The position numbers and the translations under genes are program-made. 64,000 nucleotides of DNA from Xanthobacteraceae bacterium (GTDB taxonomy: Bacteria; Pseudomonadota; Alphaproteobacteria; Rhizobiales; Xanthobacteraceae): NCBI GenBank assembly GCA_023954195.1, contig JAMLIK010000005.1, forward strand, positions 186,001-250,000. Direction: 5' to 3'. Within the stretch, counting starts at the first letter, position 1, and every line of letters starts with the position of its first letter. Positions 5,708-36,687 of the stretch are shown here, piece by piece. Below the pieces are notes generated by a model, which worked only from the letters and a program-made list of their open reading frames with translations, did no database searches and was not told the DNA's origin.

Positions 5708-6919
<1,212 letters not shown>

Positions 6920-7038
6920 GGAACCATGGGTCGGTTGGGTGCGGCGGTCCGTCTCGGAACGGTCCGCCTCACATAGGCTTTCCCGCGCCCGCTGCAAAGC
7001 CGCAAATGACCGGTTCCCGCCCCCGCGTGCCGCGTGGG

Positions 7039-7608: not shown

Positions 7609-7928
7609 CCGGCCGGGTTCCCGCAGCATTGTGACTGGAAGATGGCTTTGCCCTCGATTGTGGCGAATCTGCATGGTCGGGACATAGCATTTTGCGCCGG
7701 CGATGGCGATTATCGATTGCCCCCGGCGCGCGATGGAAAATCGCGAAGCGCGCGAAATCGGCCAGTTCGCCGTGATCGCCGACGCGGCCCGCGGGTACTG
7801 CGCCGCGCATCTTGCAACGCGCGCGGCTTTCGAATCAGATTGTAGCCTGCGGCCAAATCCGGCAAGAAGCCCCGATCGTCCCGCGTCGATCGCGTCACCC
7901 TCTCCGTCCGCCAACTTCAGGTGTGTTC

Positions 7929-8903
7929 ATGAAAGCCATTCTCTGCTCCCAATATTGCGGCCCCGACGACCTCGTGCTGACCGAGGTTCCCGATCCGGTG
8001 GCCGGTCCCGGCGAGGCGGTGATCGCGATCAAGGCGGCGGCGTTGAATTTCTTCGATCTCCTGATGATTCAGGGCAAGTACCAGATCAAGCCGCCGTTTC
8101 CGTTCTCGCCGTCGGCGGAAGTCGCCGGCGTGATCGAGAGCGTCGGCGCCGGCGTCACCGACCTCAAGGTCGGCGACCGCGTGATGGCCTCCTGCGGCCA
8201 CAACGGCGCGCGCGAGAAGATCGCGCTGCCGGCCTCCGCCATCATCAAGATCCCGGACAACCTCGATTTCGATCGCGCCGCCGGCATCACCATCATTTAC
8301 GGCACCACGCTGCACGCGCTGGAGGATCGCGCCAGCCCGAAGCCGGGCGAGACGCTCGCGGTGCTGGGAGCCGCAGGCGGCACCGGCCTCGCCGCCTGCG
8401 AGATCGGCAAGCTGCTGGGGCTCAAGGTGATCGCCTGCGCATCCTCCGACGAAAAGCTGGCGTTCGCGAAAGCGCACGGCGCCGAGTTGACGCTGAACTA
8501 CAGCAAGGAAGACCTCAAGGACGGCTTGAAGAAGCTCACCGGCGGCAAGGGCGTCGACATCGTCTACGATCCGGTCGGCGGCAGCTACTCGGAGGCCGCG
8601 CTGCGCGCCATCGCCTGGGAGGGCCGCTTCCTGGTGATCGGTTTCGCCTCCGGCGAAATTCCGAAAATGCCGCTCAATCTGGCGCTGCTGAAGGGTTGCG
8701 ACATCCGCGGCGTGTTCTGGGGCGCGTGGACCAAGATCGACCCGGCGAAGAACCGCGCCAACCTCGAACGGCTGGCGCAATGGACCGCCGAGGGCAAGCT
8801 GTCGTCGCATGTCGACCGCACCTTCCCGCTGGCGCAAACCGCCGACGCGCTGAAAGTCCTCGCCGGCCGTCAGGCGATGGGCAAGGTGATCCTGCATCCG
8901 TGA
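7929..8903 (+). CDS. NADPH:quinone oxidoreductase-like zinc-independent MDR protein
   Basis: A 324-residue medium-chain dehydrogenase/reductase. The N-terminal GroES-like domain (1-120) lacks the catalytic-zinc Cys/His set, as in quinone oxidoreductases. The Rossmann nucleotide-binding loop is GAAGGTGLAA at 147-156. The family reduces quinones or enones with NADPH. The start at 7929 (MKAILCSQY) matches the family's N-terminus; the frame is open further upstream but without homology. It is divergent from the IalB-like gene. Confidence 0.85.
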   Translation: MKAILCSQYCGPDDLVLTEVPDPVAGPGEAVIAIKAAALNFFDLLMIQGKYQIKPPFPFSPSAEVAGVIESVGAGVTDLKVGDRVMASCGHNGAREKIALPASAIIKIPDNLDFDRAAGITIIYGTTLHALEDRASPKPGETLAVLGAAGGTGLAACEIGKLLGLKVIACASSDEKLAFAKAHGAELTLNYSKEDLKDGLKKLTGGKGVDIVYDPVGGSYSEAALRAIAWEGRFLVIGFASGEIPKMPLNLALLKGCDIRGVFWGAWTKIDPAKNRANLERLAQWTAEGKLSSHVDRTFPLAQTADALKVLAGRQAMGKVILHP

Positions 8904-9934: not shown

Positions 9935-11386
9935 TTGAGCGCCAACACCGCATCCGACGCCACGCGTCGCGCCCCCGCGCCGCTCTCGCCGCGCTCCGCC
10001 AAGCGCAAGCTCATGCTGGTCATCCTGGCGGGCGCGCTTGCCCTGATCGGACTTGTCGTCGGCGTCTACTACTTCGCGACGCGCCCGGTGACCTTGCGGA
10101 TCGCGGTCGGCCCGCCCGCCAGCGACGACGTCAAGGTGATTCAGGCCATGGCGCAACTGTTCACGCGCGAGCACGAGTCGGTCCGGCTGCGGCCGCTGGT
10201 GACCGAGAGCGTCAGCGCCAGCGCCGCGGCGCTGGCCGACGGAAACGCGGATCTGGCGGTGGTGCGCGGCGATCTCGCCATTCCCAAGATCGCTCAGGCG
10301 GTGGCGACGCTGCGCAAGAGCGTCGCCATGCTGCTGGTGCCGCCGCGCAAGGCCGACGCCGCCGCGCCGGGCGACACCGAAGCCATCACCAGCATCGCGC
10401 AGCTCGCCGGCCGCCGCATCGGCGTGATCGGAAAGACCCAGGCCAACGTCAAGCTGCTGGATGTCATCCTGCGCCAGTACGGCGTCAATCCCGCCAAGGT
10501 CACGGTGCTCCAGTTCTCGTTGCCGGAGGTCGCCGAGGCGATGCGCAACCACAGGGCCGACGCTTATCTGGCGGCCGGCCCGATCGGCGGCCGGCTGACC
10601 TCGGACACCATCGCCGCTATGTTGCGCGAGGCCGGATCGCCGACCTTCCTGTCGATCGACGCGGCCGGAGCCATCGCGCAGAATTATCCGGTTTACGAGA
10701 CGGCCGAGATCCCCGCGGGCGTTTTCGGCGGCGCGCCGGCGCATCCCCCGACCGAAATCAAGACCATCAGCTTCGCGCATCACATCGTCGCGCGGGACAG
10801 TCTTTCCGACAGCACGGTGGGCGCCCTGACGCGACAGATCTTCGAGGTCCGGCAGGAGGTGGCGGCCAGCTTCCCGCTCGCCGCGAAGATCGAAACCCCC
10901 GACACCGACAAGGACGCGGCGCTGCCGGCGCATCCCGGCGCCGCCGCTTACGTCGATGGCGAGGAGATGTCGTTTCTGGAAAGCTATAGCGACTACATCT
11001 GGTGGGTCATCATGGGCGCATCGGCGCTGGGCTCGCTCGGCGCATGGTTTGCGAGCTATCTCAAGCGCGACGAGCGCACCGACAATGTCTCGCTGCGCGG
11101 CCGCCTCCTGGACATGCTGACGCAGGCGCGACGCAGCGATTCCCTCGCCGAACTGGACCGCATGGAGACCGAGGCCGACGATATCATGCGTAACACGCTC
11201 GACGCCTTCGAGCGCGGCGGCATCGAGGAAGGATCGCTCACCGCGTTCCAGATCGCGCTGGAACAGTTTCACAACGCGGTGGCGGATCGCCGGATGTGGT
11301 TGGCGGGGCGGCCGGCGCCCGTGCCGGGGAACGCTTCCGGGGATGCCACCGAGACCGACGTCAAGTTGATCCCCAGTTCGTCTTAG
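9935..11386 (+). CDS. TAXI-family TRAP transporter solute-binding protein, membrane-anchored
   Basis: A 483-residue protein with an N-terminal signal-anchor ([21 protein letters not shown]), a periplasmic TAXI/NMT1-like binding domain (about 55-330, beginning [12 protein letters not shown]), a second transmembrane helix ([21 protein letters not shown], near 355) and a cytoplasmic helical tail. Classical TAXI proteins are soluble binding proteins. This two-helix architecture with a cytoplasmic tail may sense a ligand rather than deliver it, and no TRAP permease lies nearby. The start is the TTG at 9935. No ATG precedes the anchor in frame, so the start is moderately sure. Confidence 0.8.
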
Positions 11387-30242: not shown

Positions 30243-31080
30243 TAGGCTCCAGACTCAATCGGTCCACCAAGTTATGATGGCGGCGATATTGATGGCCGCT
30301 TCGAAGTTGCGCGCCAGCTTGTCGTAGCGGGTTGCGATGCGGCGCCAATCCTTGAGCCTGCAAAACATGCGCTCGATGCGGTTGCGCAGCTTATAGGCTT
30401 CGGTGTCGAAGGGATGTGTTCGCTTTCGCGTGGGGTTGTTCGGGATGACCGGGATTGTCCCGCGGCCGAGCAGAAAGAGCCGAAAGCCGTCGCTGTCATA
30501 GGCGGTATCGGCGGCGCATAAGCGTGCCGCTGGCAAGCCGGAGAGAAGGGGCAGAACGACGCGAAGATCGCCGCGTTGTCCGGGTGTTATCTCGATGGCG
30601 AGCGGTCGGCCCTGGCCGACGACGACGGCGTGGATTTTGGTCGTACGCCCACCGCGCGAGCGCCCGATCGCCTGTTCCTCCGCCCCCTTTTCCGCCCGCT
30701 GCCGAGCGATGCGCCTTTGCTGTCGTGCTGTCGATCATGTGCACGTCATTGGCGCTGGCTGTTGCCAAGGCGCGAAACAGCTTCTGCCACAAGCCGCGCG
30801 CCGACCATCGATGAAATCGATTGTAGATCGTCGTCGGCGGACCGTAGCATGAGGGGCAATCCTGCCAGCGACAACCGGCCCTCAGCACATGCACGATCCC
30901 GCTGATCACGCGGCGATCATCAACCCGGCGCGCTCCGGGGCGGTTCTTCGGAAGCAACGGGTCGATCGCTGCCCATTGCGCATCGCTTAGCCAAAACTCG
31001 TTCGCCATCGTCAAGCTCCGTGCAGAGCTTGAATCTGATTTGCTCCATAACCTCAATACTCTGATCGGGTTTGGAGCCTA
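30243..31080 (-). mobile_element. IS5-family (IS427-like) insertion sequence with TA target duplication
   Basis: The element itself is 30245-31078 (834 bp). Terminal inverted repeats begin GGCTCCAGACTCAATC (left, plus strand) and GGCTCCAAACCCGATC (right, minus strand), matching at 13 of 16 positions. TA at 30243-30244 and 31079-31080 is the likely target duplication. Inside is one transposase gene in two frames. The element sits exactly between two convergent genes. Confidence 0.85.
30255..31008 (-). CDS. IS5-family transposase in two frames (orfA/orfB)
   Basis: The N-terminal half starts at 31008 (MANEFWLSDAQWAAIDPLLP) and carries the first catalytic Asp in HMIDSTTAKAHRS. The C-terminal half, in another frame to the stop at 30255, carries the second Asp (ADTAYDSDGF) and the Glu (RNRIERMFCRLKDWRR). 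The frames join near an A4G5 run on the minus strand (30683-30691), requiring a +1 (or -2) shift. This may be programmed, as in other elements of this group, or an inactivating indel. All three catalytic acidic residues remain. Confidence 0.82.
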
Positions 31081-34167: not shown

Positions 34168-34452
34168 GGCGGCTCTCCTTGCAAGTCGTGCCCGCGACGA
34201 CCGGACCGCCCGGCCGCGGTCCAAGCATACGGGAGTTGCCGTTTGCGGCAAACCGATCCTGCGACGAGGTGCGGTGTTGGCTCAAGGATTGCGGCTGGAA
34301 CTGGAATAAGTTTAAACCGGTACGTGGCGCACTTCTAAAACTCGGTTATTGTTTCACCGCGAGCAGCGGCGGGACGGGCCGATGGCGATGTCGGCTCCGT
34401 GTCGGAAGACGCGCATGCCGCCAATTCAGACTGTGGCGACAGGGAGACATAG
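34168..34452. promoter_or_regulatory. divergent control region of the HtrA-like and nitrite reductase genes
   Basis: 285 bases between the two divergent starts. I looked for an FNR/NnrR box (TTG-N8-CAA) expected of a denitrification gene and found no convincing copy. An AT-richer patch (AAGTTTAAACCGG near 34307-34319) may be promoter-related. The nirK start is preceded by GGGAGA. Confidence 0.35.
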
Positions 34453-36687
34453 ATGGCTGCATCATCGGATCGTTCGAAGTTGAGGAACTGGCTGCCGGGC
34501 ACCCTCGGAGTGGTGGTGCTGTTCGGCCTCGCCGGTTACGCGGGGTTATCGCAAGGACGAAACGAGCCGACGCCGACCGAGCCGGCGAGCGTGGCGACCG
34601 CAGCCAAGCCCGAACAAGCCAAGCAGGAACAAGCCAAGCCCGCGGCGGCGCAAACCGCCGCCAAGGCCGCGCCTACGGAAACCAAGGCCGCGCCTACGGA
34701 AACCAAGGCCGCGCCCACGGAAACCAAGGCCGCGCCCAAGGTTGCGGCATCCCAGCCGGCCGCGTCCCCGGCTCCCGCGCCCAAGGCCGCCCCGCAGGCG
34801 GCGGCTCCGGCCGCGCCAAAAGTCGCCGCCGCGCCGGCCGCGCCTGCGCCCGACGCCAAGGCGCCGGCGCACAATATGGGGCATAACATGGGGCACAGCA
34901 TGGCGCAGGCGCCCGCCGCGCCGTCCGCCCCCGCCGCGGCCCCTGCCGCCAAGGTCGCCGCCACCACCACGGTCGACGGCGACGCCGCTCATGGCCGTCA
35001 GGTCTTCAAGAAATGCCAGGCGTGCCACTCGATGCAGCCAGGCAAGAACTTGCTCGGTCCGAGCCTCGCCGGCATCGTCGGCACCAAGGCCGGCGAGGTG
35101 CCGAACTACAGCTTCTCCAATGCGATGAAGCAGAGCGGCATCACCTGGACGCCGGAGAAGCTCGACGCCTATCTGAAGGATCCGCAAAAGGTTGTGCCCG
35201 GCAACAAGATGCCGTTCCCCGGCCTGAAGACCGATTCGGATCGCACCGACGTCATCGCCTTCCTGGCGGCGTCGGCCGAGGGCGGTGGAGCGGCGCCCGC
35301 CGCCGCCGCGACGCCCGCGCCCGCGCCCGCCGGCAATGCGGCGGCTCCGGTGCCAGCCGCGCGAGCGCCCGCGGCGCAGGCCGCCGCGCGGCCCGTCATG
35401 ACCTATCTGTCGGATGCCAAATACACCCTGCGCTCCGGCATCGCCGAGGGGCGCATGGTGTTCCTCGGCGTCGGCGGCACCATCGACGGCAAGGTCAACC
35501 CGATCCTGACCGCCGTCGAGGGGCAGGTCGTGCAGGTCACCCTGATTAACGGCGAGGGCACCGAGCATGACATCGTGTTCCCGGATCAGGATGCCCGCTC
35601 GCCCCGCGTCGTCAGCAAGGGCGCCAGCACCAGCATCGTGTTCCGCGCCGGCAAGGCCGGCGACTTCCTGTATTTCTGCGACGTTCCCGGCCACCGCCTG
35701 GCCGGCATGGAAGGCCAGTTCTTGGTGACGGCGACGCCGTCGGCGCAGGTGACGGTGGAAGCGGACATCTCGCGGCTGCCGACCGATCTGCCGCCGCCGA
35801 TCGGCAAGCGCGATCCGAAGACGGTGCGGCTCGATCTGCTCACCGTCGAGATGGAAGGGCGTCTTGCCGAAGGCACCACGTTCGGTTACTGGACCTTCAA
35901 CGGCAAGGTGCCGGGACCGTTCGTGCGGGTGCGCGTCGGCGACACCGTCGACGTTCATTTGAAGAACGCGGCCGACAGCAACATGATCCACTCGGTCGAT
36001 TTCCATGCCGCCACCGGTCCCGGCGGCGGCGCGGCGGCGTTGCAGGTCGATCCCGGCAAGGAGAAGTCGATGAGCTTCAAGGCGCTGAAGCCGGGGCTCT
36101 ACGTCTATCACTGCGCCACGCCGATGGTGGCCGAGCACATCGCCAACGGCATGTACGGCCTGATCCTGGTCGAGCCGGAGGAAGGGCTGCCGCCGGTCGA
36201 TCATGAGTTCTATCTCATGCAGGGCGAGATCTACACCGACGCCGCCTTCGGCCAGCACGGCAGCCAGGAGTTCAGCGTCGAGAAGCTGCTGGCCGAAAAG
36301 CCGGAATACTTCGTGTTCAACGGCTCGGTCGGGGCGCTGACCAAGCTGCATCCGCTGCATGCCAAGGTCGGCGAGACGGTGCGGCTCTACTTCGGCGTCG
36401 GCGGCCCGAACTTCACCTCGTCGTTCCACGTCATCGGCGAGATCTTCGACAAGGTGTACAACCTCGGCGGGACGATATCGCCGCCGCTCGAAGGCATCCA
36501 GACGGTCTCGGTGCCGCCGGGCGGCGCGGTCATCACCGAGTTCAAGCTGGACGTGCCGGGCGGCTACACCATCGTCGATCACGCGCTGTCGCGGGCCGAA
36601 CGCGGCCTCGCCGGCGTGCTGGTGGTCGAGGGCGAGCCCAATCCGGACATCTTCAACGGCGTGGTCGAGCCGGGCATGGGGCACTGA
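34453..36687 (+). CDS. nirK: multidomain copper nitrite reductase (cytochrome c + cupredoxin + CuNiR)
   Basis: A 744-residue enzyme reducing nitrite to nitric oxide in the periplasm. Order: signal-anchor (about 14-34); Ala/Pro/Lys linker with three AAPTETK repeats; His/Met-rich HNMGHNMGHSM (140-150); class I cytochrome c (175-275; heme motif C188QACH192, axial Met253); second linker; cupredoxin with type-1 copper ligands H372, C409, H414 and M419; CuNiR core (about 455-735). In the core the type-1 site is H513, C554, H562 and M567, the type-2 site is H518, H553 and H710, and the catalytic pair is D516 and H659, all present. The C-to-H spacing of 8 suggests the class II NirK group. The tethered heme and cupredoxin could pass electrons internally. 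Confidence 0.93.
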   Translation: MAASSDRSKLRNWLPGTLGVVVLFGLAGYAGLSQGRNEPTPTEPASVATAAKPEQAKQEQAKPAAAQTAAKAAPTETKAAPTETKAAPTETKAAPKVAASQPAASPAPAPKAAPQAAAPAAPKVAAAPAAPAPDAKAPAHNMGHNMGHSMAQAPAAPSAPAAAPAAKVAATTTVDGDAAHGRQVFKKCQACHSMQPGKNLLGPSLAGIVGTKAGEVPNYSFSNAMKQSGITWTPEKLDAYLKDPQKVVPGNKMPFPGLKTDSDRTDVIAFLAASAEGGGAAPAAAATPAPAPAGNAAAPVPAARAPAAQAAARPVMTYLSDAKYTLRSGIAEGRMVFLGVGGTIDGKVNPILTAVEGQVVQVTLINGEGTEHDIVFPDQDARSPRVVSKGASTSIVFRAGKAGDFLYFCDVPGHRLAGMEGQFLVTATPSAQVTVEADISRLPTDLPPPIGKRDPKTVRLDLLTVEMEGRLAEGTTFGYWTFNGKVPGPFVRVRVGDTVDVHLKNAADSNMIHSVDFHAATGPGGGAAALQVDPGKEKSMSFKALKPGLYVYHCATPMVAEHIANGMYGLILVEPEEGLPPVDHEFYLMQGEIYTDAAFGQHGSQEFSVEKLLAEKPEYFVFNGSVGALTKLHPLHAKVGETVRLYFGVGGPNFTSSFHVIGEIFDKVYNLGGTISPPLEGIQTVSVPPGGAVITEFKLDVPGGYTIVDHALSRAERGLAGVLVVEGEPNPDIFNGVVEPGMGH
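34664..34726. repeat. 21-bp tandem repeat in the nirK linker
   Basis: Three head-to-tail copies of a 21-base unit (AAGGCCGCGCCTACGGAAACC, the last with one change) encode KAAPTET three times. A partial fourth copy follows. Copy number may vary between strains without breaking the frame. Confidence 0.9.

Follow-up and report, generated by a model that had tools for sequence, protein, structure and literature searches.

A four-domain heme-cupredoxin copper nitrite reductase of the Bradyrhizobium type in a Xanthobacteraceae bacterium, with two small features worth testing

Is a nitrite reductase that carries both a cytochrome c and an extra cupredoxin ahead of its catalytic core a new arrangement, and what would such an arrangement do for electron delivery? 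The question is raised by a single gene in a 64,000-nucleotide stretch of DNA from a Xanthobacteraceae bacterium, which we call the window. A first-pass annotation of the window read the gene product as a membrane-anchored copper nitrite reductase (CuNiR) with two N-terminal redox modules. This observation is correct, and the protein is a new member of an enzyme class that has already been described, with two small features that are worth testing. The architecture is not new and the find is mostly ordinary: the protein belongs to the four-domain heme-cupredoxin CuNiR class of Bradyrhizobium-like bacteria.

The open reading frame is exact, with an ATG start, and encodes 744 amino acids laid out as an anchor, an Ala/Pro-rich tether, a class I cytochrome c, a cupredoxin and a complete CuNiR core. 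The features discussed below are as follows.

34252-34452, plus strand: intergenic region upstream of the four-domain gene, without a TTG-N8-CAA (FixK2/NnrR-type) box (pattern scan, alignment)
34453-36687, plus strand: four-domain nirK gene, 744 residues (ORF, Pfam, phmmer, TIGR02376)
34492-34548, plus strand: N-terminal membrane anchor, residues 14-32 (predicted, from hydropathy only)
34549-34977, plus strand: Ala/Pro-rich tether, residues 33-175, which drifts among homologues (alignment of relatives)
34870-34902, plus strand: His/Met motif HNMGHNMGHSM, residues 140-150, a possible metal site (sequence, shuffles)
34978-35277, plus strand: class I cytochrome c domain, residues 176-275, with CQACH at 188-192 and axial Met253 (Pfam, alignment)
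35278-35400, plus strand: second Ala/Pro-rich linker, residues 276-316, without histidine (sequence)
35401-35742, plus strand: extra cupredoxin domain, residues 317-430, with H372, C409, H414 and M419 (Pfam, phmmer, alignment)
35764-36684, plus strand: two-domain CuNiR core, residues 438-744 (Pfam, phmmer, TIGR02376, core tree)

Profile searches support each of the modules. The Pfam matches, all above the gathering score, are Cytochrom_C at residues 178-272, Cupredoxin_1/Copper-bind at 348-425, Cu-oxidase_3 at 475-577 and Cu-oxidase_2 at 620-726, and the protein also scores above the cut-off of the NCBIfam CuNiR equivalog, TIGR02376. The domain content, domain order and anchoring proposed by the first-pass annotation therefore stand. 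In particular, a complete CuNiR core is present in the one chain, with type-1 ligands H513, C554, H562 and M567, type-2 ligands H518, H553 and H659, and D516 and H633 at the AspCAT and HisCAT positions. The roles of these core residues are the ones we assume from motifs, following the numbering of AcNiR, a classical CuNiR. The claimed class I cytochrome c is borne out by its heme residues (C188, C191, H192 and M253), as is the separate blue-copper domain by its four copper ligands. None of these heme, copper and catalytic positions varies among the 34 proteins compared, namely the window protein and 33 relatives, so that every redox centre appears to have been kept. The membrane anchor, also claimed at first pass, is a prediction: residues 14-32 form a hydrophobic 19-mer preceded by three basic residues, and 30 of the 34 proteins reach the hydropathy threshold. 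The four that fall below it are L015, which meets a contig end, L031 and L037, whose N-terminal frame is unclear, and L012, which lies at the threshold.

The relatives were found by scanning genome contigs with short peptides of the window protein, which gave 78 loci; such a scan is biased towards its query, and the loci are therefore no census. The 34-protein set holds the window protein and those 33 whose match begins no later than query residue 185 and extends at least as far as residue 690. It includes L035, which loses its frame near residue 690, and excludes L044, in which the contig ends at residue 555. The same fusion is thus found at 33 further loci, each in another contig accession series, and a match is present in all eight genomes of the genus, counting that of the window. 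Given these loci, the idea that gene prediction or assembly artificially joined neighbouring genes is vanishingly improbable, and we reject it.

A maximum-likelihood tree computed from 74 cores unites the 34 four-domain proteins with the structure 6THE in one clade (support 97/99), with 6THE nested inside. We take 6THE to be the engineered core of the four-domain enzyme BrNiR of Bradyrhizobium sp. ORS 375, although the structure entry itself says only copper nitrite reductase; on this assignment, the core of the window protein is 79% identical to that of BrNiR across 313 positions. The protein thus has the features of the BrNiR class, a cytochrome c and a cupredoxin N-terminal to the core and a core in the clade of 6THE. 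A further mark of the class is a catalytic efficiency below that of classical two-domain enzymes. According to the sequence records, four-domain cores occur in Bradyrhizobium, Afipia, Pseudolabrys, Rhodoplanes, Methyloceanibacter and Microvirga. Among 61 genomes drawn from the family, seven carry an open reading frame of 685-820 residues whose core is at least 75% identical, in a search that used the core alone as query. The result adds 33 relatives, each covering the stretch from the cytochrome to the core, to a class in which we know of one studied enzyme, and it places their cores in one clade across several genera.

The novelty of the domain order can be settled from the literature, on which we drew in excerpts (PMC7775769, PMC12117333, PMC6400189, PMC9358711, PMC9335323, PMC10999283 and PMC13103080). 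Excerpted accounts of ORS 375 report a "four-domain heme-CuNiR" alongside a two-domain CuNiR, and an excerpt of PMC8301774 places a cytochrome c and a cupredoxin at the N terminus of the core in the four-domain NirK of Rhizobiales. A new order is thus ruled out, since cytochrome c, cupredoxin and CuNiR core are already on record in this succession. The excerpted part of a NirK phylogeny, moreover, describes the clade that holds the Hyphomicrobium and ORS 375 enzymes as abundant in all terrestrial biomes. The first-pass description of this order as less common says too little about the published record. That annotation had also named an architecture already described and common as the finding that would overturn it, and this is in part what we find, the ORS 375/Rhizobiales enzyme being in print.

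Comparison with the known systems leads to the same assignment. BrNiR shares with the window protein the N-terminal cytochrome c and cupredoxin, a two-domain CuNiR in the same genome and cores that fall in one clade; its N-terminal part is shorter, judging by D439, if this is AspCAT as we infer from the D439N variant, against D516 here. A further comparison is offered by 2DV6 and 6TFD, presumably three-domain CuNiRs of the Hyphomicrobium denitrificans type, whose cupredoxin and core align with ours over some 415-430 residues at E values of about 1e-176 (for 6TFD, phmmer gives E = 2.2e-176 across residues 305-734, far beyond chance). These chains begin just 12-26 residues before the matched stretch and so have no cytochrome c domain; as crystallised chains, they give no basis for judging an anchor. 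In the Hyphomicrobium type the cupredoxin is the sole addition to the core, whereas Pfam finds a cytochrome c domain here too. The Ralstonia pickettii three-domain heme-CuNiR (3ZIY), as described in excerpts, shares a core fused to a cytochrome c, but it carries that cytochrome at the C terminus, lacks an extra cupredoxin, and has its heme 10 Å from the type-1 copper. The window protein ends with its core at residue 744.

We are highly confident of the explanation as a whole, namely that this is a BrNiR-type enzyme tethered at the membrane that reduces nitrite to NO, with electron-delivery steps that we infer. An uncleaved N-terminal helix would probably anchor it in the inner membrane, and a long, flexible tether would carry the enzyme domains into the periplasm. 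The core should assemble into the usual trimer and convert nitrite to NO, as others have reported for the class and as the complete active sites here suggest. The mitochondrial-type cytochrome c domain would most likely take electrons from bc1 in place of soluble CycA, and would pass them to the type-1 copper of the core, either directly or through the cupredoxin.

The donor step can be related to a known carrier. The cytochrome domain belongs with the mitochondrial-type class I cytochromes, and its best NCBIfam model is that of the c550 CycA, with 94.8 bits against a cut-off of 240. This match argues weakly for a CycA-like donor role, because it lies well below the cut-off and because all three of the genome's other cytochromes that were scanned also match it (77.0, 83.5 and 224.5 bits). 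Bradyrhizobium CycA is a separate soluble protein, unlike the fused domain, and is described in an excerpt of PMC6710368 as the free carrier from bc1 to NirK. With CycA as the nearest model and as the carrier between these two partners, the simplest reading is that the fused domain takes over from the free donor.

What the fusion does for the rate of electron transfer is where readings of the BrNiR-type enzyme diverge. The first-pass annotation saw a self-contained wire from the quinol/bc1 side to the type-1 copper. Spelled out, this would have electrons run from quinol or bc1 through the heme and the cupredoxin copper to the core type-1 and type-2 coppers, with tethering raising the rate; we consider this unlikely, even though the invariance of the redox ligands speaks for it. 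The N-terminal tether is said, in a FEBS J abstract of 2021, to down-regulate activity, which we count against a wire. Excerpts of a review likewise state that the extra domains of BrNiR bring no gain in catalysis and may lower it, and in the Hyphomicrobium three-domain enzyme, as excerpted, about 24 Å separate the extra copper from the core type-1 copper, and the extra copper is reported to be unable to shuttle electrons. That said, a table excerpted from the review gives BrNiR 9.38 nmol/s as the full enzyme and 1.67 nmol/s without the cytochrome domain (0.08 nmol/s for D439N), and the excerpted part of a PELDOR paper on three-domain enzymes makes a case for domain mobility and for a benefit of tethering. 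We read these data together as pointing to a cytochrome domain that matters in a slow, tuned enzyme and not in a fast wire. Studies published on these enzymes suggest that being tethered adjusts or caps the rate and does not raise it. A different reading, which we hold to be possible though still doubtful, is that the cytochrome domain roams on its long flexible tether, much like cytochrome cy, and serves other acceptors too, so that the fusion mainly co-locates enzyme and donor at the membrane. This would fit a tether that drifts freely and spans 71-153 residues wherever an anchor was found. It would also fit the matches of the domain to structures of cytochromes cy, c2 and c552, among many mitochondrial-type ones, but these matches do not single out cy, because the mitochondrial-type fold is common to many cytochromes.

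The first of the two features worth testing lies in this tether. The tether drifts, yet a short His/Met motif persists in it: beside the motif of the window protein, HAHGHDMSKM, HDHM, MQHQHTQM and others occur elsewhere. In 29 of the 34 proteins, the 50 residues that precede the cytochrome contain two histidines no more than four positions apart; 2000 shuffles gave a mean of 7.6 such proteins and never more than 15. A strict HxH occurs in the same stretch in 24 of the 34, the window protein not among them (shuffles: mean 2.1, maximum 9). When the set is reduced to ten representatives at 80% identity, eight have the His pair and five the HxH; only the HxH was shuffled here, with a mean of 0.46 and a maximum of 4. 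Histidine accounts for 73 of 1684 residues in the part of the tether near the cytochrome, whereas the second Ala/Pro-rich linker has 3 in 1283, and His pairs are present in the near part of the tether in 26 of 31 proteins, against 3 of 31 in the far part (L015, L031 and L037 left aside). Taken one sequence at a time, with the whole tether shuffled, most proteins do not reach significance. There is no His pair in L017, which is Met-rich instead, or in L019, L022 and L040; L023 has one only farther out, and the truncated L044 has none. An outside control from Ala/Pro-rich stretches of other genes gave nine stretches, none with a His pair, which are too few to use: three of the nine come from L044 itself, and two are Cys-rich.

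The retained His/Met motif, which is MxHxHxM-like, might bind copper, and might then load the three copper sites or make the cytochrome's reach depend on how much copper is available; we regard this as improbable. If true, the anchored enzyme would be its own copper-acquisition device and the tether more than a spacer. Searching the literature for histidine-rich elements in CuNiRs brought up nothing relevant among the 12 of 22 papers listed, and on that basis the retained motif may be new as a detail. Clustered histidines are also seen by eye near the apparent mature N terminus of three cupredoxin-CuNiR relatives without a cytochrome (L042:1681-3363, L043:5914-7407 and L051:5773-7389).

The second feature is upstream of the gene. 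A TTG[ACT]-N6-[TGA]CAA box lies within 300 bases upstream of 18 of 31 four-domain genes, where single-base shuffles lead us to expect 0.7, and random 300-base stretches from 30 loci contain it in 5.4% of cases. This pattern is looser than FixK2 and was set after the published boxes were known, a first scan with the symmetric TTGAT-N4-ATCAA having been too narrow. The scan skipped L015, L031 and L037, in which no anchor was found; two genes have less than 300 bases upstream, and start codons were guessed. Sixteen of the 18 boxes agree with the FixK2 consensus quoted in an excerpt of PMC6710368. No FixK2/NnrR-type box was found by the pattern scan in the upstream region of the window gene. The box is present in L009, L010, L011, L016, L012 and L013, which we take to be relatives from the window's genus on the strength of equal open reading frame lengths, and the window position aligned to the box of L009-L011 differs in sequence, in what is a loose alignment. 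The two-domain nirK of the same genome has the box TTGCGAACTCGCAA at -78. The window gene may thus have lost its box, and its expression may be altered accordingly; the absence of a FixK2/NnrR-type box here may be new as a detail. Together, the tether motif and the missing box raise two questions. Does the tether bind copper? Are the four-domain and two-domain enzymes of this species used under different conditions?

The two-domain CuNiR of the window genome has 8R8S and 6THF as its best PDB matches. The sequence group of 6THF includes 6ZAR/6ZAS, which an excerpt of PMC7775769 lists as deposited under Br2DNiR. Across the genus, a near full-length core match of 36-39%, taken as the second, two-domain nirK, was found in five of eight genomes, among them that of the window, with one partial match and two genomes without any. 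NosZ scores above its cut-off in the window genome; no NapA does, and so this search yielded no enzyme for the nitrate step.

The four-domain gene is flanked by a trypsin/PDZ protease and a 3-hydroxyacyl-CoA dehydrogenase. Among the 33 loci, L009, L010 and L011 have the protease and an ArsB-like neighbour in common with the window, and these three and L015 have a dehydrogenase that is 90-92% identical. The remaining loci, several of them short, have none of these neighbours at high identity. Since the window's neighbours are mostly not found at other loci, the neighbourhood says little on function. An open reading frame with a DUF4096 (IS4/5 family transposase) match lies at 30496-31056 on the minus strand, about 3.4 kb from the gene.

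Additional CuNiR genes were seen in several assemblies. Two of the family genomes (G041 and G045) have, in addition to the presumed four-domain gene, an extra CuNiR whose core identity is 66-67%, and G045 has a third at 38% core identity. A Devosia assembly (L045) carries two nearby CuNiR genes, at 5860-6948 and 7647-8849, that are not nearest neighbours in the tree. In a Mesorhizobium assembly (L064) a CuNiR match extends over two overlapping frames at 10018-11222, and another lies at 5716-6834.
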